DNA of 24,297 nucleotides, from positions 1 through 24,297 of the IMG/VR virus record IMGVR_UViG_3300036760_000095, one strand, 5' to 3'. The first letter of the stretch is position 1. Every line of letters begins with the position of its first letter. A program made the position numbers and the translations under genes. The DNA comes from a virus. Below are positions 1,056-22,537 of this stretch, piece after piece. The notes beneath the pieces are model-generated. The model searched no databases, was not told the DNA's origin, and was given only the letters and a program-made list of their open reading frames with translations.

Positions 1056-1444
1056 AGTTTATCCTCCTCAACTTATACCGAAAGGGAAGGAAATGTCCCT
1101 AGCCATAGAATTAAGCTAGTAAATATAAAAGGCAAAATCGGTTTTTTCTCCGCACCTTTTCTATTTTTCTGTAATGTTTCTTATAGCTCCACTTTCGTAT
1201 CATCGCTACCCAAAACATCCGACTCCTTAATACTCAAAAATAGTTCTATGTAAAGTATTAAGCGATGGCATTGTGCCGTCAACCGATGAGGGTGAGGTAT
1301 CTGCCCGTCTCACAATTAAGTTGGCTTCCAAAAGAGGCTGTGATTTCGCCCACCATTCTTTCAGCACTAGATACAAACGAAAAGGAGACGGACTATTACA
1401 CTTGGTAGTTAAATAATCGCATCTCCTTTTCGTACCAAGTGTAA
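985..1444 (-). ncRNA. candidate large structured noncoding RNA
   Basis: No convincing gene fills 978-1533, but the stretch is dense with inverted repeats. From the 5' end of the minus transcript: two interlocking stems (1433-1444 with 1396-1407, 12 bp; 1422-1432 with 1378-1388, 11 bp), a long-range stem 1369-1374 with 1297-1302, alternative 1292-1296 with 1309-1313, hairpin 1267-1270/1274-1277, nested 1263-1267/1201-1205 and 1254-1262/1226-1234 (9 bp), 1127-1132/1155-1160 enclosing 1139-1141/1150-1152, 1115-1119/1099-1103, and 990-997/1054-1061 enclosing 1021-1026/1045-1050. The strand is set by the promoter at 1449-1476, whose predicted start falls at about 1442. I could not match it to tmRNA, RNase P, SRP or a group I intron by eye. 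It could be a known large phage RNA (GOLLD or ROOL type) or new. Confidence 0.5.
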
Positions 1445-3000: not shown

Positions 3001-3420
3001 ATGGCAGGAGTAAAAGGAAAATCAGGTGTTTATAAAAGGACTGATAAAAATTTAATAAATTTGAGAAAAGTTCTTAATATAAGAAATACACTGAACAATC
3101 CTATTAAAAATGGGGAATTGCATCCAAATTGGAAAGGTGGCAATAGTAGGGGGTATAAAACTGGATATTATTCAGTGGAATATAAAATGTGGAGAAGGGC
3201 AGTTTTTACCAGAGATAATCATGTTTGCCAGAAATGTTTTGGGGAAAGAGGTCAGTATATTACAGCTCATCATATTAAATCATTTGCTCATTATCCCGAT
3301 TTAAGATTTGAATTATCAAATGGCAAAACGTTATGTGAAAAATGTCATAGTGAAACAGATAATTATAAGGGTCGTGCGAAAATTAAAATAACGTCAAAAT
3401 CGCACTTGACAGAAATATAA
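3001..3420 (+). CDS. HNH homing-type endonuclease (clade A)
   Basis: 139 residues. The NWKGG motif at 43-47 is typical of phage HNH proteins. The HNH zinc module has C76-x2-C79, the catalytic AHHIK (H90, H91), N108 in NGKTLC, and C112-x2-C115-H116. It shares WRRAVF-RD and the PDLRF/PELRF-NGxTLC pattern with the proteins at 4410 and 12553, so the three are paralogues. It is inserted between tiny genes and the ssDNA-binding-like gene. A possible -10 box TATAAA (2990-2995) lies 5 nt before the ATG. Confidence 0.85.
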   Translation: MAGVKGKSGVYKRTDKNLINLRKVLNIRNTLNNPIKNGELHPNWKGGNSRGYKTGYYSVEYKMWRRAVFTRDNHVCQKCFGERGQYITAHHIKSFAHYPDLRFELSNGKTLCEKCHSETDNYKGRAKIKITSKSHLTEI

Positions 3421-3982: not shown

Positions 3983-4417
3983 ATGAGCCAAGTCTTCATA
4001 TTCACAGCTAAAGAGGGAAAGATGAGTTGGAATTCTGTTTATAACCACGAACGCTTTAAGCAATGTTTGCAAGAAAATGAAGGAAAGGATTTCAGAATTG
4101 AACCCCTTATTAGCACCCGAAGTATGTCTCAAAATTCTTTATATCATTTATTTCTTGATGTGATATGTAAAGAAACGGGCAATGACCATAATAATTTGCA
4201 CGAATATCTTAAAAGAGAATTATTACCCCCAAAGTTTATTAAAGTGATGATAGGAAAAAAAGAAATAGAGAGAAAAATTCCCGCAAGTACAACAGAATTA
4301 AAACGAGGTGAGTTTTGCGACTACCTTGATAAGATAAGTAGTGAATGTGGAGTTGCTATTCCCAATACAGAGGAGTATAATGTGTTCATTAATGAAGCAC
4401 CATTATTAAATGAATAA
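3983..4417 (+). CDS. NinB-like recombination mediator
   Basis: 144 residues matching the pattern of the NinB/Orf family (lambda Orf-like), which loads recombinases at ssDNA/SSB. Visible signs are STRSMSQNSLYH (44-55), NNLHEYLKRELLPP (70-83), STTELKRGEFCDYLDKI (102-118) and IP at 126-127. The usual length is about 140-150 residues. It lies downstream of the ssDNA-binding-like gene. Its final 26 residues (116-141) recur, diverged, at the C-terminus of the HNH protein that overlaps its end (ATGAATAA overlap at 4410-4417). Confidence 0.7.
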   Translation: MSQVFIFTAKEGKMSWNSVYNHERFKQCLQENEGKDFRIEPLISTRSMSQNSLYHLFLDVICKETGNDHNNLHEYLKRELLPPKFIKVMIGKKEIERKIPASTTELKRGEFCDYLDKISSECGVAIPNTEEYNVFINEAPLLNE

Positions 4418-5087
4418 GAACGGAAAAATTATATTTTGTTTAATCTGTAAAAAGGAATTTTATATTCCAAAATGTTTTCTAAAAATTAGAAAGTATTGTT
4501 CATATAAATGTAAGCATATAGGTCAAAGAAGTATTATTGTATGGAATAAAGGGAAAAAATTAGATAAAGAACACGCTATGAAATGTGGAAGTGCAATGAG
4601 AGGTAAAAAACATACGAAAGCAACTAAATTAAAAATGAGATTAGCACATTTAGGTAAAAAAAATAGTTTAACACATAGTAAAAATATAAGTGAAGCAAAA
4701 AAGAAATTAGTAAAAAATGGATTGCATAATTGGGGAGATGGAACTAAAACTCCACAAAGATTAGCCATTTATAATAGTAGAGAATATATAAATTGGCGAA
4801 CAGCTGTTTTTATTAGGGATAATTTTTCTTGTAGAGAATGTAGTCAAAAAGGTGGAAAACTACAAGCAGACCACATAAAGCCATTTGCCTATTTTCCAGA
4901 ATTACGCTTTGTAGTAGATAACGGCAGAACATTGTGTGAACCTTGTCATTACAAAACTGATACTTATGGCTCAAAGGCATATAAATATAAAAGGAATATG
5001 GATAAAATATCGGCACTTACTCAAATACAAATACCAGATACAGAAAGTTTTAAGGATTGGCGAGACGAAGCTCCATTAAAAGTTTAA
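4410..5087 (+). CDS. HNH endonuclease with NinB-type C-terminal tail (clade A)
   Basis: 225 residues. An N-terminal zinc finger (C10, C13, C30, C34) is followed by NUMOD3-like repeats rich in K, G and S (about 50-105), then the HNH module: C141-x2-C144, D154-H155, N171, C176-x2-C179-H180. Residues 198-223 (DKIS...EAPL) align without gaps to the last part of the NinB-like protein upstream (116-141), 12 of 26 identical. This suggests the endonuclease entered the 3' end of an older ninB and kept the old tail in frame. The gene is more AT-rich than the virion genes. Confidence 0.85.
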   Translation: MNKNGKIIFCLICKKEFYIPKCFLKIRKYCSYKCKHIGQRSIIVWNKGKKLDKEHAMKCGSAMRGKKHTKATKLKMRLAHLGKKNSLTHSKNISEAKKKLVKNGLHNWGDGTKTPQRLAIYNSREYINWRTAVFIRDNFSCRECSQKGGKLQADHIKPFAYFPELRFVVDNGRTLCEPCHYKTDTYGSKAYKYKRNMDKISALTQIQIPDTESFKDWRDEAPLKV

Positions 5088-6423: not shown

Positions 6424-6837
6424 ATGGAAACTACTTTATGTGGAAAATGCAATAAACCCAAAGGCAAGGAAGAGGGTTGTTGTAAATGCGGGCGGCCATT
6501 GAAATTTGAATCCTTAAAAGATTTACAAGATAGGATTGATATTTATTTTAATAATACTTCAAAAGATGAATGGACTATAACTGGATTAGCAATGGAGCTT
6601 GACACTTTTAGAAGTGTATTGGTTGATTATGGGACAGGGAAGTATGATGATGTTGATGAGTTTTCCAACGCGATAAAAAAGGCTAAGCAAAAGGTAGAAA
6701 ATGGCTATGAAATAGATTTAAAAAAGTCAGGAAGAAGTGGAACTATATTTGCTTTAAAGAATTTTGATTGGACTGATAAAAATGAAACTAATTTATTAAA
6801 TGCCGGAAAATCTTTTGATTTTGGATGGGAAAAATAA
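6424..6837 (+). CDS. terS: terminase small subunit (gp3-like) with N-terminal zinc ribbon
   Basis: 137 residues. The part from GRPLKF (about 24-29) onward fits small terminase/DNA-packaging gp3-like proteins: a predicted helix-turn-helix around TITGLAMELDTFRSVLVDY, then KKAKQKVENGYE and FALKNFDWTDKNE. It would bind the packaging site and hand DNA to the large subunit. Unusually the N-terminus has a C6-x2-C9 ... C19-x-C20-x2-C22-type cluster, probably a zinc ribbon. It overlaps terL by 13 bases. Confidence 0.75.
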   Translation: METTLCGKCNKPKGKEEGCCKCGRPLKFESLKDLQDRIDIYFNNTSKDEWTITGLAMELDTFRSVLVDYGTGKYDDVDEFSNAIKKAKQKVENGYEIDLKKSGRSGTIFALKNFDWTDKNETNLLNAGKSFDFGWEK

Positions 6838-8168
6838 AAGTTGTAATAAAATATAAACCTAGAAATTGGGCTAACGCTTTACATAATGCGGTAACTCGTT
6901 GGATTGTAATGATATTACATAGAAGAGCTGGAAAAACCACTGCCGCGCTGAACCATTTGCAAAGAGATTGTCTAAAGAAAGGTGGAACACTTTATGCATA
7001 TATTGGACCCACTTACAAACAGACTAAACGAATTGCTTGGGATATAGCCAAGAAAATATCTGAAAATATACCAAACATTGATTATAATGAAGCAGAACTA
7101 ACGATAAAATATCCTAATGACTCAAAACTATTTCTAGCTGGCAGTGATAATATAAATGCTTTGCGAGGATTAGGACTTTGGGGAGTAGGACTAGACGAGT
7201 ACCCTTTGCAGTCTCCGGCTCTATTTACAGAAGTTATCTCAAAGTGCCTAGCAGACCATTTAGGATATTGTATATTTTTTGGAACACCTAAAGGAAAAAA
7301 CCATTTTTACAGAATATACAATACCGCTCTAAAGAACCCGAAAGAATATACAGTTATCTATCACACTATTGACGATAGTTTAGCGAATGAAGAAGGCGAA
7401 ACGATAGATAATTTACGCCAAGCTCTTGAAGACGATAGAAAACTTGTAGCTCAAGGCGAAATGACCCAAGATGAGTTTGATCAGGAATGGTATAATTCCT
7501 TTGAAGCATCGGTTAAGGGAGCTTACTATTCTACACAAATAGCTGAAGCGCGGAAGCAGGGCAGAATTAAGATTGTGCCTTATGACCGGGAACTTTTAGT
7601 GCATACTGTTTGGGATTTAGGAGTTGGGCAAGCTCTTGGTATTGGTTTCTACCAAAGAATAAACAGGGAAATGCGAATGATAGATTTCTGGGAAGGACAA
7701 GGAGCTGAGGGTATTTTAGATGGAATTGTATCTGTGCAAAACAAGCAATATATTTATGGAAAGCATTTTGCTCCGCACGATATTAGAGCTAGAGAAGAGT
7801 CCACCGGCAAGACCAGACTTGAAACAGCTAGAGAAAAAAATATAAACTTTGAAGTAGTGCCTATGATTTCAGTAGATGACGGAATAAATAAAGGAAAGTT
7901 GATGTGGAGTAGATTATGGGTAGATAGTGTAGCTTGTGAAGATTGGCTGGAAAAAGTATCACAATATAAACAAAAATGGAATGAGGATAAGCAAATGTTT
8001 GAAGATAAACCCTCGCACGATTTTACTTCACACGCCGGGGATGTGCATAGATATGCTTCTATTGTAGAAGATTTAATGACTAACGAATTTGATAACAATG
8101 AAAGACAACGAATAGAGCAGAACCGATTTGATAGGGTAAGTGTTGCCCGTGATTACGGGTTGACTTGA
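6825..8168 (+). CDS. terL: terminase large subunit
   Basis: 447 residues, normal for this family. The ATPase domain has a deviant Walker A HRRAGKTT (32-39) and Walker B WGVGLDE (119-125, D124/E125 catalytic). The C-terminal RNase H-like nuclease domain shows acidic residues at D264 (TVWDLG), D319 (PHDIRA) and D406 (AGDVHR). It powers DNA translocation and cuts concatemers at the portal. The start at 6825 overlaps terS. The stop is TGA, inside a promoter for the next gene. Confidence 0.95.
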   Translation: MGKIKVVIKYKPRNWANALHNAVTRWIVMILHRRAGKTTAALNHLQRDCLKKGGTLYAYIGPTYKQTKRIAWDIAKKISENIPNIDYNEAELTIKYPNDSKLFLAGSDNINALRGLGLWGVGLDEYPLQSPALFTEVISKCLADHLGYCIFFGTPKGKNHFYRIYNTALKNPKEYTVIYHTIDDSLANEEGETIDNLRQALEDDRKLVAQGEMTQDEFDQEWYNSFEASVKGAYYSTQIAEARKQGRIKIVPYDRELLVHTVWDLGVGQALGIGFYQRINREMRMIDFWEGQGAEGILDGIVSVQNKQYIYGKHFAPHDIRAREESTGKTRLETAREKNINFEVVPMISVDDGINKGKLMWSRLWVDSVACEDWLEKVSQYKQKWNEDKQMFEDKPSHDFTSHAGDVHRYASIVEDLMTNEFDNNERQRIEQNRFDRVSVARDYGLT

Positions 8169-8659: not shown

Positions 8660-9112
8660 GTGAGTAAGGGACTGAAGAGATTTATTCCTAGCCATAAAGG
8701 TATACTTCATACTGAGGAAACTAAAAGAAAGATGAGTTTAGCTCATAAAGGAAGAAAGTATAAACCTATGTCAGAGCAAGGAAAAGAAAATATAAAGAAA
8801 AGTTACGATAAGCGTTATAAAATTTTAGGTATGCCATTCCCAAATTGGAAAGGTGGAAATTGTGTTGCAAATGGGAGGGCAAGAAGAAGAAATGTAAAAG
8901 GGTCGTTTACTAGTGCAGAGTGGGAGTTATTAAAAAAGAGTTATAATTTTACTTGTCCTTGTTGCAAAAGAAAAGAACCTGATATAAAATTGACTAGAGA
9001 CCATATTATTCCGATTATAAAAGGTGGCTCAAATTTTATAGAAAATATTCAGCCTCTCTGTATAAATTGTAATAGTTATAAACATACTAAAACAACTAAA
9101 TATGAATTCTAA
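8660..9112 (+). CDS. HNH homing-type endonuclease (clade B)
   Basis: 150 residues from GTG at 8660. NUMOD3-like motif TEETKRKMSLAHKGRK (about 18-33), NWKGG (62-66), then FTSAEWELLK and the HNH module: C99/C102, D114-H115, KGGSN, N129, C134-x2-C137. It is closely similar over the HNH part to the protein at 15588 (DHIIPI-KGGSN-IENIQPLCINCNS shared), so the two are recent paralogues. It sits between the terminase and portal genes. Confidence 0.85.
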   Translation: MSKGLKRFIPSHKGILHTEETKRKMSLAHKGRKYKPMSEQGKENIKKSYDKRYKILGMPFPNWKGGNCVANGRARRRNVKGSFTSAEWELLKKSYNFTCPCCKRKEPDIKLTRDHIIPIIKGGSNFIENIQPLCINCNSYKHTKTTKYEF

Positions 9113-9480: not shown

Positions 9481-11192
9481 TAAAAAAAATCACAGAGGAA
9501 ATAATGAACTATAAGACTAATTCCTACGAAATGATGGAGGGATACAGTTTTTCAGCTTATAAATTATTACGCAGGATTGGTTTGTACAAATCGCAAACAT
9601 TTCCTAAGGGGAAACTAGACAGTCAAGGAGCGTATAAATACTGGTTCGATATAATTACATCCCGTGTCAATAGCGAAGTTAAGAACATAGACTTTGACAC
9701 CAAAGACATCCAGCTCTACTCTGACGCTAAAGAAGACGCTATCCGTGTTTTGTTAGCCAATGTGGCGATGAAAGACTATCTAGCTGAAAGCGGTGAAGCC
9801 GAAAAACTAAACGAAGCGGTGGAGCAAAGCAGTGAATGGGGCAATGTTGTTTGGAAAAAAGTAGATAAAGACTACAAGATACTTGAACTAAATAATGTAA
9901 TGGTGCTGAACCAGACCGCTAAGACACTTGAGGACTCTGATGTAATTGAATATGAATGTATGCTCTCTACCGACCTGCGGAAAAAGAAAGGCACTTGGTA
10001 TGATGATGAAATTGACGAACTGATAAAATCTGCCAAGCCGACTACTAACAAAACTTCTCCTGAATTTTATATCTACGAAAGGAATGGCGAAATAACTGAA
10101 AAAGAATATCTGTTGGCTAAAGATGAAACCGACACTGGCGACGAAGACAAGTTTATCTTAGCCAAAGTTATTGTCGGAGGCATAGAGAAAGAAAAACCTA
10201 CCACAGTGTTGTTCTGCGAAGAAATTAGTGAAAAGCCATATAAGGAACATCATCGCTCTTTTTACTCCGGGCGTTGGCTCCGAATGGGTTTGTATGAAAT
10301 CCTGATGGACATACAGACCCGAGCCAATGAAATTGGCAACCAAATAGCGCGCGGGCTTGAGTATGCTTCTAAAACATTTTTTGCTTCACCTGACAGACTT
10401 ATCGCTCAAAACATCTTGACTGACTTACAGAATGGCGATGTCATCAAAGGCGATATTAAGCAAGTGGAAGTGCGAATGAATGGACTTGACCAGCTTATAG
10501 CCGACTGGAACCGACTGATGACCTTAGCTGACGCTTTGTCCAACTCTTATGAGGTAGTTACAGGCGAAAATTCTCCAGCAGGCACGCCTTTCCGTTTAGC
10601 CGCTCAACAGAACTTAAACGCTAATAAACTCTTTGATTTCATAAGAGAGAAACTAGGCATAGCTTTTCAAGGCGTGATAGAGGACTGGATATTGCCTAAC
10701 CTACTAAAGAACCTAAAAGCAAAAGAAATCTTGCGACTGACTGATGACAGTGGAGCGTTGGGAGAATACTACAAAGCCCTTGTTGATAACTGGTATGTTT
10801 CTAACCTTTTATCCTTCCCGCCACACGATGAACAAGTTGGACAAGAAATAAAACAACAGAAATTGCAGGAAGTAATGAAAAATACTAAAGTGATGGTAGA
10901 ATTGGAAGATGGAATGTGGAAAGACTTTGAGCCAAGAGTGCGAGTTTCGATTACGGGTGAAAACTATGCGATTGCCTCTGAGCTCGACACACTGAATAGT
11001 TTTATTCAACTCGAGCAAGACCCTGTAAGACGAACGGCACTAATTGAAATGGCAATGAAAAAGAAAAATATTGATGTATCAGCTTTACCAAAGAGTCCGC
11101 CTCAACCACCACCTCAACCTCCTCAGCAAAATCAAGGACAAGGTGGAGGACTCGACGAGGCGCTTAAAAATCAATCGATGGCTATGGCATAA
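9477..11192 (+). CDS. portal protein
   Basis: 571 residues, in the usual range for portals of short-tailed phages. It is placed between terminase and scaffold/capsid genes as expected. The mixed alpha-helical core, the segment IQTRANEIGNQIARGLEYAS (about residues 280-300) and the later LADALSNSYEVVTGE fit portal proteins, and the C-terminus is rich in Pro, Gln and Gly (PPPQPPQQNQGQGGG). Twelve copies would form the ring through which DNA enters. Codons are visibly more GC-rich than in neighbouring HNH genes. Confidence 0.8.
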   Translation: MIKKITEEIMNYKTNSYEMMEGYSFSAYKLLRRIGLYKSQTFPKGKLDSQGAYKYWFDIITSRVNSEVKNIDFDTKDIQLYSDAKEDAIRVLLANVAMKDYLAESGEAEKLNEAVEQSSEWGNVVWKKVDKDYKILELNNVMVLNQTAKTLEDSDVIEYECMLSTDLRKKKGTWYDDEIDELIKSAKPTTNKTSPEFYIYERNGEITEKEYLLAKDETDTGDEDKFILAKVIVGGIEKEKPTTVLFCEEISEKPYKEHHRSFYSGRWLRMGLYEILMDIQTRANEIGNQIARGLEYASKTFFASPDRLIAQNILTDLQNGDVIKGDIKQVEVRMNGLDQLIADWNRLMTLADALSNSYEVVTGENSPAGTPFRLAAQQNLNANKLFDFIREKLGIAFQGVIEDWILPNLLKNLKAKEILRLTDDSGALGEYYKALVDNWYVSNLLSFPPHDEQVGQEIKQQKLQEVMKNTKVMVELEDGMWKDFEPRVRVSITGENYAIASELDTLNSFIQLEQDPVRRTALIEMAMKKKNIDVSALPKSPPQPPPQPPQQNQGQGGGLDEALKNQSMAMA

Positions 11193-11193
11193 A

Positions 11194-11511
11194 ATGAAAA
11201 GAATAGAATATACAACTAAAGAAAGTTTAGATAAACTTAGAAAGGTAGATAAACTATATCAACAAAACAAACGATTAAGATTAGTAGGATATAAAACTGA
11301 AGAATATAGAAAGTACCGTAAGAAATATCCTGAAAAAGTAAAGGCTCAGCAAAAGTTAAATAGAGAATTTAGAAAAGGAAATATTAAAAGGTCGCCATGC
11401 TATAAATGTGGAGAAATTTATAAAGTACATGCCCATCATCCAAATTATTGTAAACCTTTAGAAATAATTTGGGTTTGTTCTATTCATCATAAGGAGTTAC
11501 ATAAAAAATGA
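11194..11511 (+). CDS. HNH-like zinc protein after the portal
   Basis: 105 residues from the ATG at 11194, directly after the portal stop; longer in-frame starts inside portal are less likely. A basic helical N-terminus (residues 1-65) is followed by CYKCG, then AHHPNY and VCSIHHKELH, a compact zinc/HNH-like fold common in phages. Whether it cuts DNA is unknown. Its AT-rich codons contrast with the portal, suggesting an inserted cassette together with the next ORF. Confidence 0.6.
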   Translation: MKRIEYTTKESLDKLRKVDKLYQQNKRLRLVGYKTEEYRKYRKKYPEKVKAQQKLNREFRKGNIKRSPCYKCGEIYKVHAHHPNYCKPLEIIWVCSIHHKELHKK

Positions 11512-12552: not shown

Positions 12553-12987
12553 ATGCCAAGAGGGATGTATATAAGAAGGGAAGGTTATAAAGGCTATTGG
12601 TTTGGTAAAAAAAGACCTACACCTTCTCAAAAAACTAAAGATAAAATAAGAAAAGCTACTTTAGGAAAACCTAAACTTCTAAATCGTGGAGAACGCTCTA
12701 ATTTATGGAAAGGTGGTGTAACTTCTATAAATGCAAAAATACGAACTTCTTTGGAGTATAAAATTTGGCGTAGAGCAGTCTTTGAGAGAGATAAATATAC
12801 TTGTATTTGGTGTGGAATGAAAAGTGGAAATGGAAAAGCAGCAATACTTAATGCAGATCATATAAAACCTTTCTATGAATATCCCGAACTTCGTTTTGCA
12901 ATAGATAATGGTCGTACTCTTTGCATTGAATGTCATAAAAAAACAGATACTTGGGGGAGACCTAGAAAATTAAAAGATAATAAATAA
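12553..12987 (+). CDS. HNH homing-type endonuclease (clade A)
   Basis: 144 residues. A NUMOD3-like basic segment (FGKKRPTPSQKTKDKIRKAT), the LWKGG motif, then WRRAVFERD, CIWC, ADHIKPF, YPELRF, DNGRTLC and ECHKKTDTWG: the full HNH module. It closely resembles the module at 4410 and that at 3001. It has its own extended -10 promoter and sits between small structural-region genes. Confidence 0.85.
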   Translation: MPRGMYIRREGYKGYWFGKKRPTPSQKTKDKIRKATLGKPKLLNRGERSNLWKGGVTSINAKIRTSLEYKIWRRAVFERDKYTCIWCGMKSGNGKAAILNADHIKPFYEYPELRFAIDNGRTLCIECHKKTDTWGRPRKLKDNK

Positions 12988-13189: not shown

Positions 13190-13191
13190 AG

Positions 13192-13403
13192 TTATACACA
13201 CCCTATTTATAGTAATAGTATTTATATATAAAGATTATTATTACTATTAGTCCTGTGGATATGTGGAAAAGTATTTTATCTCTTTATTTTGCAAGATAAT
13301 AAAAAACTTTGTGGGTGCGTAATATGTGTATAACTTGGGGATTGGCTATAATAACTTTATTTAACAAGACAGAAATCAACAAGTTATTAACAGGTTATCC
13401 CCA
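13192..13403. other. candidate replication origin or DnaA-box cluster
   Basis: The stretch 13190-13489 has no gene. It holds TTATACACA (13192-13200), inverted copies TGTGGATAT (13254-13262, one mismatch), TGTGGAAAA (13262-13270) and TGTGTATAA (13325-13333), and TTATCCCCA (13395-13403, one mismatch). Three of the five fit TTWTNCACA exactly. Between the first two boxes is an AT-rich inverted repeat (13209-13217 with 13239-13247). This resembles an origin with an unwinding element, but the sites could instead bind a regulator of the late promoter. Confidence 0.45.
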
Positions 13404-13404
13404 C

Positions 13405-13432
13405 TTGACAAGAAGTATGGAAGTAGTAAAAT
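13405..13432 (+). promoter_or_regulatory. late promoter for scaffold and capsid genes
   Basis: TTGACA (13405-13410), 16-nt spacer and TAAAAT (13427-13432), preceded directly by CCCCAC. The 12-mer CCCCACTTGACA is identical to that of the minus-strand promoter at 1449-1482, and spacer length and -10 are the same. It leaves a leader of about 50 bases before ATG 13490, which contains a small hairpin (13471-13482). Confidence 0.65.
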
Positions 13433-15587: not shown

Positions 15588-15998
15588 ATGCCTAAAGGTA
15601 TACATAACAACCATAAACCTAATTCTGGATGTTTCAAAAAAGGACACATTCTTGCTTGGAAAGGTAAAACAAGACCAGAGATAAGTGGAAAAAATCACTG
15701 GAATTGGCAAGGGGGTCTTGAAACTAATAAAGCACATAGAGTTGTAATGCAACAAAATCGTGAAGCCCAGAAAAGAATAAATGGAGGTTATCATACACTT
15801 AGTGAATGGGAATTACTAAAAGCTCAATACAACTGGATTTGCTTAATGTGTAAAAAACAAGAACCAGAAATTAAGTTAAGTGAAGACCATATCATACCTA
15901 TAACCAAAGGAGGTTCTAATAACATAGAAAATATTCAACCACTTTGCATAAATTGTAATAGTTCGAAAAAGACTAAGATAATAAACTTCAGGGAGTAA
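15588..15998 (+). CDS. HNH homing-type endonuclease (clade B)
   Basis: 136 residues. It starts [20 protein letters not shown], like the N-terminus at 21839, then NWQGG, [15 protein letters not shown] and the HNH module ([40 protein letters not shown] with the usual His, Asn and Cys pairs). The HNH half is nearly the same as at 8660. It lies between the capsid gene and the fibre gene, with its own promoter. Confidence 0.85.
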   Translation: [136 protein letters not shown]

Positions 15999-16170: not shown

Positions 16171-19100
16171 ATGGCAAAAATATTTAATCGTGGACTTCTC
16201 ATTTCGGGTGAGAAAAAGAAAGTAGGAACACCAATCATCACCATAGTAACTTTAGACGGTGATAACAAAGTTACTAGGGGTTATGGTGCTTCAATTCCTA
16301 CAGATGGTGATGCGGGATACGCAGTTGGTTGTATATTTGCGGTTACTACAGGTGTAGTAGGTTCAACTTTATACATCAATGAGGGTTCAACAAGTTCTTG
16401 TGATTTCAACGCAGTAACTTCAGGAGCGGCAGGCGGTGTTTCAACTTGGAATCAACTATATGCCAATGCTAAAACAATGGCGATTACAGGTACGACTGTA
16501 ACCTTTAACGGACAGCACGCTACCAATAATGTATTCACTCTTACAAGCACAGGAGCGGGTTCAGGCAATGTTCTTCAAATTACTAATGTCGGCACAGGAC
16601 TAGATGTAAATGGCACTTCTGGTCTATGGTCATTTAGTAAATTAGGAGCAATGACAGGACTTTCAGTTGTGCTTGCGGGTACAGCGGCGACAACTTCGTT
16701 CACAATGACACTTGGTAATGCTGTTATTTCAGCAGGTGGTCTTGGTATCACAAAAGCGACTGATACGAATACCTTGACTGTTACAAACAATGCTTCAGTG
16801 GCGACAACGCAAGTAGCTTTCGCTGGTTCAGCCGCTTATACTGGAAATACGACAGCTTCATACTTCACGATTACTCCTTCAGGATTAACTTCAGGAACGG
16901 CAGTGTATCTTCCTTTAGCCGCTCTTACGACTGGAAAAGGACTTCACATTGTAGCCAATGCTTATAGTGATGGTTTGGTAGTAAATATAACTTCAAGTTC
17001 AGTTGCTTCCACCTCAACAGGGCGTTTGTTTAATCTTGCGCACACAGCAACGGCAAATGTCAACCACATCATCGCAGAAATGGCGACTGCGGCTCAAGAC
17101 GAAACAGTACTCTTGAAACTTACCGCTTCGGATATTCTAGCCGCTGGAGCAATACTCCGAGTTGGAGGTGTCGCAATGACAACAGGTACGGCAGTAGATA
17201 TTACCGACTTGGCGGTTCTTACGACAGGTATTGGGGTAGGTTTAGTTTCTTCCGCTACTGCTATCACGGGGGCTGGCAGACTTTTGTTTGTAAATCACAC
17301 AGGCACGACATCTTCCACCGGTACGCTTGTAGAATTCAAAACAGCGGCGGCAGATGCAGCTAACGCCACGACACTTCTAGCTTTGACAATGGCAGCTGCT
17401 ATCGTTGGAGTTGGACTAAATGTTACCAGTACGACAGCAATGACTACAGGTAGCTTGATTAGAGCTTCCAATAGTTCGGCTGGAGCTTACGCCACAAATG
17501 GAGCTATTTCATTCACTTCTACGGGAAACTTTACAAGTACAAGTGCTGTAAATGGTGGCTTTGTTGAGGTAAAAGCAAATACCACTACAGCAGGAACAGT
17601 GGTAAATGTTATTGGTACTTCCCTAACGACTGGTATCGCGCTTCAACTTTCGAATGGAACTTCAGCAATGACGACAGGTTCTCTTTTGAGAGTTACGGCA
17701 AGTGGCACTGGAACAGTAGCAACAAACGGTATTGTTTCAATTACTCACGGAGGCATCTTTGTTTCAACTTCTAATGCTGGTGTTCTTGATGTAAGAGCTT
17801 CAGCTATGGTGGGTACGGCTTCTAACGGCACACTGGTCAACTTTATGACTACGGCTGCCGCCCAAGTTGATACTACTGTTCTTAATATAGAAAATTCAGG
17901 ATTTACAACTGGTTACACGGGTTCAATGTTGAGGATAAAGTCCCCAACAACGACAGGCGCGGGGATTCTTGTATCAGTTATCGCTGACGGTATTACCTCA
18001 GGCGGTACAGCGCAGAAAATATCTACAACTGCTCTAACGACAGGTGTTGGACTTTCTATCACCGCTTCAGGTGGAACTGCCGCTATTACAACTGGCTCAC
18101 TCCTACGAGTGGCTACCGATGGCACAGGGGCTATTGCTACAAATGGTGTAGTTAGTTTCACTCATACTGGTATCTACACTTCCAATTCATCTGTAGATGG
18201 CGGCTTTGTTGAAATAAAAGCTGCTAGTACGACAGCAGGTGTTCTCTTAAATGTAGTTGCCGCAGGACTTATTACAGGTCAAGCGGTATCTATCTCTAAC
18301 GGAACAGCCGCTACAACTACTGGTTCACTCTTGGTAGTTGCCGCAGGTGGAACTGGCGCGGTAGCAACAAACGGTATTGTTAGCTTCACACACACGGGAG
18401 TTTATACTTCTACTTCAGCAGTAAATGGTGGTTTCGTAGAAATAAAAGCCGCTAATACAATTGCTGGAACTATCGTTAATATCGTAGGAGCAGGTCTTAC
18501 TACGGGTATTGCTCTTGAAGTTTCTAACGGCACTGCCGCAACGACAACTGGCTCTCTAATTAGAGGAGCCGCAGGAGGAACAGGAGCGGTGGCAACGAAT
18601 GGTATTTACTCTTTCTTCCACACTGGGGTTTACACTTCTACTGCCGCAAGTCTTGGTATGTTCCACATTTCCGCTTCGGCAACGACAGCAGGAACGGTGG
18701 CTAGTATCTCGGGAGCTGCGGTAATCGGTGGCACAATTCTTTCTCTTAACGCCACAGCCGCTACGCTTACAACAGGTAGATACTTGTCTGTAAATGACTT
18801 GACTGCGGAAGTATTCGGTATTGGAGCAAATGGACACTTGCATTCAACTGTGGGTGCTGTTGCTCCAACTATTGTGGTAACTACTCAAAATGGTATTACA
18901 GCCGCCGCTATTACAGCAGGAGGTAGTGATACTTGTGGAGTTATTACTACGACTGGAACGAACAACAATGGAGGTTCAACTGTTTTGACAGTTACCTTCA
19001 ACAAGACTTACACGACTGCTCCAAAAGCAGTGTTTGTAACAGGTGCTAACCAAGCAGGACAAAAAGCTTCGTCAACTGCGGGCGCAACATTATATGGTGG

Positions 19101-21838: not shown

Positions 21839-22537
21839 ATGCCAGTAGGAATTTACAAACATAAACCAAATCAGGGTTTTCAAAAAGGACATAAGATAGG
21901 TGTAGGAAATAAAAATACTACAGGTTTTATTTTTTCTGATATTTCTAAAAAGAAAATAAGTGATAGATTAAAAGGAAAAAAGAAATCGGAAACACATAAA
22001 GAAAATATAAGAAAAGCTAAAATTGGAAGTAAAAATCCTATGTATAAAGTAGGACAAAATAAATGTCTTAACTGCAATAAACAATTAAATGGTTATCAAG
22101 CAAAAAGATGCAAATCTTGCGCAAATAAAGGAAAAAATAATCCTCAATACTGTAAAGGAAAACCAGTTTGTATAGATTGCAATAAATTACTATCAAATTA
22201 TGGTTCCAAAAGATGTAATAGTTGTCGTAGAATGTTTGAGGTTGGTGAAAATAGCCCCCATTGGATAGATGGTTTGTCTCGTAACGGTTACCCAAAAGAA
22301 TTTAATCCAACCCTTAAACTAAAAATCCGAACTAGAGATAACTTCACTTGTTGCTTATGTGGTAAAACAGAGCGAGAAGAACTTGAAGAACTAAATCAGG
22401 TATTGTGCGTAAATCATATTGACTTTGATAAAAATAATTGTTCTGAAAAAAACTTAAATGCACTTTGCTTGAGGTGTAATGTAAAAATAAACAGAGAACG
22501 AGATTATTGGACTAATTATTTTAATAAAAATGGATAA
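21839..22537 (+). CDS. HNH endonuclease with two zinc ribbons (clade C)
   Basis: 232 residues. NUMOD3-like motif (about 34-64), then two zinc ribbons (C76/C79/C91/C94 and C111/C114/C126/C129), a SPHWIDG motif, and a C-terminal HNH module: C171/C174, VNHIDF (H193), N206, C210/C213. This HNH differs from the other clades. It lies between the nozzle-like and fibre genes and overlaps the latter by eight bases. Confidence 0.8.
   Translation: MPVGIYKHKPNQGFQKGHKIGVGNKNTTGFIFSDISKKKISDRLKGKKKSETHKENIRKAKIGSKNPMYKVGQNKCLNCNKQLNGYQAKRCKSCANKGKNNPQYCKGKPVCIDCNKLLSNYGSKRCNSCRRMFEVGENSPHWIDGLSRNGYPKEFNPTLKLKIRTRDNFTCCLCGKTEREELEELNQVLCVNHIDFDKNNCSEKNLNALCLRCNVKINRERDYWTNYFNKNG

Follow-up and report, generated by a model that had tools for sequence, protein, structure and literature searches.

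In the DNA of an uncultured phage (IMG/VR record IMGVR_UViG_3300036760_000095; the whole analysed stretch of 24.3 kb is called the window), two long perfect pairings cross each other directly behind a strong promoter of the minus strand. Both pairings are confirmed, and their crossing goes far beyond what chance would give. The predicted RNA begins with the exact complement of the loop of a terminator-like hairpin that follows at once. We tentatively read the element as a promoter-proximal attenuator.

Crossed pairings and the promoter of the minus strand

A repeat search found that positions 1377-1388 are complementary to 1422-1433 (arms A/A', 12 nt, 100%) and positions 1396-1407 to 1433-1444 (arms B/B', 12 nt, 100%). 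Base 1433 is common to both repeats, so 11 and 12 pairs can be counted together. These are the two stems of 11 and 12 perfect pairs within 67 bases that an earlier sequence-only reading had described, and their crossed order on the plus strand, A-B-A'-B' with 0 nt between A' and B', was also given correctly. On the minus-strand RNA the order is B-A-B'-A'. That such an arrangement is unlikely by chance, as had been claimed, is borne out by two counts. Of the Markov-shuffled windows, 0.5% contained crossings of at least 10 and at least 10 perfect pairs within about 120 nt. Among 237 sequences (2.24 Mb, window included) there were 27 crossings of at least 9 and at least 9 pairs, and that of the window was the only one in which both stems reached 12. 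The features of the element, in the order of the minus-strand RNA, are:

1483-1491, minus: TTATCCACA, a perfect DnaA-box-like site right before the promoter, of uncertain relevance; the window has three exact copies of TTATNCACA, this one included, where chance would give 1.35
1449-1476, minus: sigma-70-type promoter TTGACA-16-TAAAAT with a TG extended -10, in CACTTGACA context (promoter scan against shuffles)
1433-1444, minus: arm B, TTACACTTGGTA, 5' tail of the RNA (repeat search)
1442, minus: the A at which transcription is predicted to start, 7 nt beyond the -10 (from promoter spacing)
1377-1433, minus: hairpin A:A', 57 nt, 21 bp and an apical 3 bp, -29.8 kcal/mol, z -10.5 (folding)
1422-1432, minus: arm A, CGAAAAGGAGA, forming the 5' side of the terminator-like hairpin (repeat search)
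1412-1418, minus: 5' strand of the inner stem, GATTATT, partner 1391-1397 (folding)
1396-1407, minus: arm B', TACCAAGTGTAA, which contributes 10 nt to the apical loop of hairpin A (repeat search and folding)
1378-1388, minus: arm A', TCTCCTTTTCG, forming the 3' side of the same hairpin (repeat search)
1369-1383, minus: U-rich tract UUUUCGUUUGUAUCU, predicted RNA 3' end at about 1370-1376 (terminator score)

The promoter, at 1476-1449 of the minus strand, has 11 of 12 consensus matches plus the TG and reads into arm B. Its -35 and -10 hexamers stand at a spacing within the 16-18 of sigma-70-type promoters, and the match exceeds chance: a shuffled window contains on average 0.08 sites with at least 11 of 12 matches and a TG. 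The window has two copies of the signature CACTTGACA-N16-TAAAAT, the second at 13402-13432 on the plus strand; the expected number is 0.00, and it never appeared in the shuffles. Promoters of the CCCACTTGACA-TANAAT type are common in viral contigs, where some precede tRNA-like sequences and gene starts. The predicted start, A1442, falls inside arm B at its outer edge. The sequence-only reading had placed the feature at the 5' end of an RNA, and this agrees with a strong minus-strand promoter that ends 7 nt before 1442. It gave no transcribed strand, and it missed both the strand of the promoter and the terminator-like nature of A:A'. All convincing genes of the record lie on the plus strand, and the crossed feature lies behind a minus-strand promoter.

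The second copy of the signature has a neighbourhood of its own. The 212 bp of non-coding DNA just before this CACTTGACA promoter (13190-13403) contain six sites resembling the DnaA box TTATNCACA, two of them exact and the others with one mismatch. Judged by these sites, the region is possibly a replication origin or a DnaA-regulated promoter.

The terminator-like hairpin and the competing folds

From the predicted start, the RNA consists of tail B (ACACUUGGUA), arm A, 14 nt, B', 7 nt, A' and UUUGUAU. The inner stem 1412-1418/1391-1397 prolongs A:A' to a 21-bp hairpin with one bulge and an apical loop of 14 nt; ten bases of this loop exactly complement the first 10 nt of the RNA. The hairpin differs between the strands: pairs 1421-1389 and 1416-1393 are U.G wobbles in minus-strand RNA and would be A.C mismatches in plus-strand RNA, and the folding energy is -29.8 kcal/mol on the minus strand against about -21 on the plus strand. 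The terminator score, our own implementation of a d'Aubenton-Carafa-type formula, gave d = -5.6 for the minus strand and -36.2 for the plus strand; the minus value is borderline, below the cut-off of 0, and the U-tract after the hairpin is interrupted. Among all distinct sites of the window the hairpin ranks third, and second outside genes, behind 15508 minus (first) and 14474 plus (second, inside the head protein gene). The first of these, the best-scoring intrinsic terminator of the window, lies just after the major head protein gene and against the direction of the genes. From the promoter, the wobble pairs and the terminator score, we infer that the minus strand is likely the functional one.

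To follow the growing chain, nested folds were calculated for RNAs of increasing length. The best nested fold of short chains is B:B' (-11.6 kcal/mol for an RNA beginning at the predicted start, -13.7 if two bases are added). The optimum switches to A:A' when about 57 nt are free and about five bases of A' are out, and at full length it reaches -30.3 kcal/mol. The direct nested path between B:B' and A:A' has a barrier of 16 kcal/mol. Thus the earlier suggestion that the two stems exclude each other stands thermodynamically, with B:B' best only before A' emerges; it is not strict, because the partner of B is the loop of the terminator-like hairpin and not its stem, and pairing of the loop leaves A:A' able to form in principle. 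By geometry, the loop of the complete hairpin should lie beyond the tail in cis, as there is no base between tail B and arm A. With this linker missing, one molecule would hardly accommodate the full hairpin together with B:B'.

A pseudoknot with an A stem of 11-13 bp beside B:B' was estimated crudely at -22 to -26 kcal/mol, with Dirks and Pierce parameters and no steric term. These energies favour the nested fold, but the crude pseudoknot is only about 4-8 kcal/mol worse, so that a strained pseudoknot may occur as an intermediate. The sequence-only reading had called an H-type pseudoknot strained, and we agree: the inner stem holds the loop about 20 bp from the tail, and the linker has zero length.

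A proposed promoter-proximal attenuator and its alternatives

A switch is plausible. Since B' emerges before A', B:B' can form first, and an early B:B' followed by the full hairpin makes a promoter-proximal attenuator the most likely form of the element; we give this reading, in which A:A' terminates and B:B' delays or prevents termination, somewhat less than an even chance. Transcription would start at about 1442 from the strong promoter and at once enter the terminator-like hairpin with its U-rich tract, so that the first ten bases of the RNA (B) would be the exact complement of the hairpin loop (B'). B' would leave the polymerase before A', and the B:B' hairpin could form first. It would have to be displaced or bypassed before the complete terminator hairpin forms. 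If A:A' formed, transcription would end with an RNA of about 70 nt; if B:B' were kept, termination would be delayed or prevented, and the polymerase would enter an untranslated region of 400 nt. The sequence, its pairings, the likeness to a promoter and to a terminator and the fold energies are shown directly; from them we infer that transcription, termination and this folding order take place in the cell, and that some signal may shift the balance.

This reading is favoured by the promoter, which leads into B, starts inside it and has its signature repeated in the window, by the hairpin (z -10.5) with its wobble pairs and terminator score on the minus strand only, and by the folding of growing chains with B:B' first, A:A' later and a barrier between them. 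A topologically similar arrangement speaks for it by analogy. In two phage loci, at L078:2687-2774 and L098:3901-3988 (minus), the loop of a canonical terminator, GCCAGCGAGC...GCTCGCTGGC-TTTTTTT, is complementary to a 12-nt upstream segment. This terminator belongs to the leader of a gene judged by eye to be of the replication type, and the leader looks like an attenuator. The two loci, near-identical among themselves, have no sequence relationship with the window, and so they serve only as an analogy and offer no covariation of their own. Against the attenuator stand the borderline terminator score and the interrupted U-tract. B pairs with a loop, and a strained pseudoknot could therefore let A:A' form. 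There is no downstream gene with a coding signal to control, and no covariation, as no homologue was found.

Known leaders of the intrinsic terminator/attenuator type share with the element a promoter, an early competing fold and a hairpin with an A-tract before it and a U-rich tract after it. They differ in that here the hairpin scores as a borderline terminator, its loop and not its stem is taken up by the early fold, and no regulated gene is recognised downstream; for this last reason we call the element attenuator-like and do not count it as a member of the class. That an early pairing can be disrupted by a later terminator hairpin is a real regulatory principle in the fluoride (crcB) riboswitch (PMC11077080). 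The likeness lies in this early co-transcriptional pairing, which the later terminator hairpin must disrupt (PMC11077080). The ligand-binding pseudoknotted aptamer of that riboswitch overlaps the terminator, whereas here no aptamer is recognised and there is no Rfam match.

It is unlikely, though it deserves serious weight, that the element instead encodes a stable small RNA of about 70 nt. The hairpin would then be its terminator, the tail would pair with the loop of a second molecule (a dimer) or with a host target, and B' would be an internal decoy. The 21-bp hairpin does leave the 10-nt tail free, with its complement in a loop beyond reach in cis, and a promoter with a terminator-like end would yield a discrete short RNA. 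However, the phage holds no second exact complement of B (one site with one mismatch, antisense, lies at 16706), and the sequence matches no known sRNA family in Rfam.

We consider improbable a true pseudoknot at the RNA 5' end, with A:A' (11-13 bp) beside B:B' (10 bp) as a structural element or a protein-binding site. Both pairings are perfect, loops of 14 and 7 nt permit side-by-side helices, and the crude estimate is the -22 to -26 kcal/mol given above; the order B-A-B'-A' with two long perfect stems is that of the H-type. But the linker between B and A is missing, the stacked stems are too long for a 0-nt loop, and the inner stem, incompatible with B:B' in cis, stabilises the nested hairpin, which is the more stable fold. 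An HDV-like double pseudoknot was rejected, with no nested P3/P4, stems that are too long and no Rfam match.

The neighbouring DnaA-box-like site and the methyltransferase start at 1534 on the other strand would suit an element acting as DNA (a palindrome by the promoter and the DnaA box, for instance a site of replication or of protein binding) or an antisense regulator of the mRNA from the divergent methyltransferase gene. The asymmetry of wobble pairs and terminator score fits a minus-strand RNA instead, and a simple palindrome would not be crossed, so this explanation is very unlikely.

It is very unlikely indeed that a long ornate non-coding RNA of the ROOL/GOLLD kind begins here and runs from 1442 to about 980. 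Like these phage RNAs (PMC12286853), the element lies in a non-coding stretch of a phage genome: about 550 nt are without convincing genes, and the minus strand of 1110-1442 has a fold z of -4.06. This value is mainly due to the 5' hairpin, however, as 960-1376 minus alone has an ordinary structure (z -0.46) and its subpieces are ordinary too. Unlike ROOL and GOLLD, the element has no covariance match, no tRNA island (no tRNA or tmRNA was found near it) and ordinary structure past the first 70 nt. Scarcely credible, finally, is an ordinary terminator hairpin that complements its own 5' flank by chance: crossings of 9-10 bp do arise in this way, even in coding sequence (L121), but the shuffles and the survey of 2.24 Mb set the longer ones apart.

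Surroundings, relatives and meaning

Upstream of the element and divergent from it lies a C5-cytosine-methyltransferase-like gene, read on the plus strand from 1534. Downstream on the minus strand, the small ORFs (31, 35 and 49 aa) have no coding signal and no family match; their coding scores do not exceed the 5th percentile for real genes and fall where antisense ORFs also score. Two of them follow Shine-Dalgarno-like sequences. The ORF of 31 codons (1055-960 minus), likewise without coding signal, follows an AGGAGG-ATG arrangement that occurs nowhere else in the window, whose plus-strand genes mostly do without such sites. A further non-coding stretch of about 220 nt (2337-2556) also lies behind promoter-like sites. 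Numerous small HNH-like genes are scattered among the structural genes (3001-3420, 4410-5087, 8660-9112, 11071-11511, 12553-12987, 15588-15998 and 21839-22537); one was confirmed by Pfam, and the others are alike by tblastn or by eye only.

The search for relatives covered several sources, from which very near records may be absent. Rfam at gathering and relaxed thresholds gave no credible match to riboswitches, ribozymes, ROOL, GOLLD or sRNA families, and a nucleotide search of annotated phages and plasmids gave no homologue. Scanning IMG/VR for four segments of the RNA as patterns returned nothing or unrelated matches. The loci of terminase and methyltransferase relatives (terminase identity up to 61%) contained no related non-coding stretch. 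The promoter signature retrieved at least 120 promoters, and among the matches listed none had crossed stems in its first 90 nt. A 32-nt similarity in L027, inside an HNH-like gene, was put down to chance. Relatives of the terminase (6825-8168) include two contigs of Patescibacteria metagenome assemblies (L113 and L116), which is a hint of the host only.

The importance of the element is limited while it is one orphan sequence. In a bolder form, which we regard as quite improbable, it would be a kinetic switch free of proteins and ligands, or a self-dimerising RNA: the first ten bases exactly complement the RNA's own terminator loop, and the speed of transcription or the concentration of the RNA would set termination against read-through. 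If this is true, the phage would have a regulator of about 70 nt built from folding order alone, with its first bases aimed at its own terminator loop.
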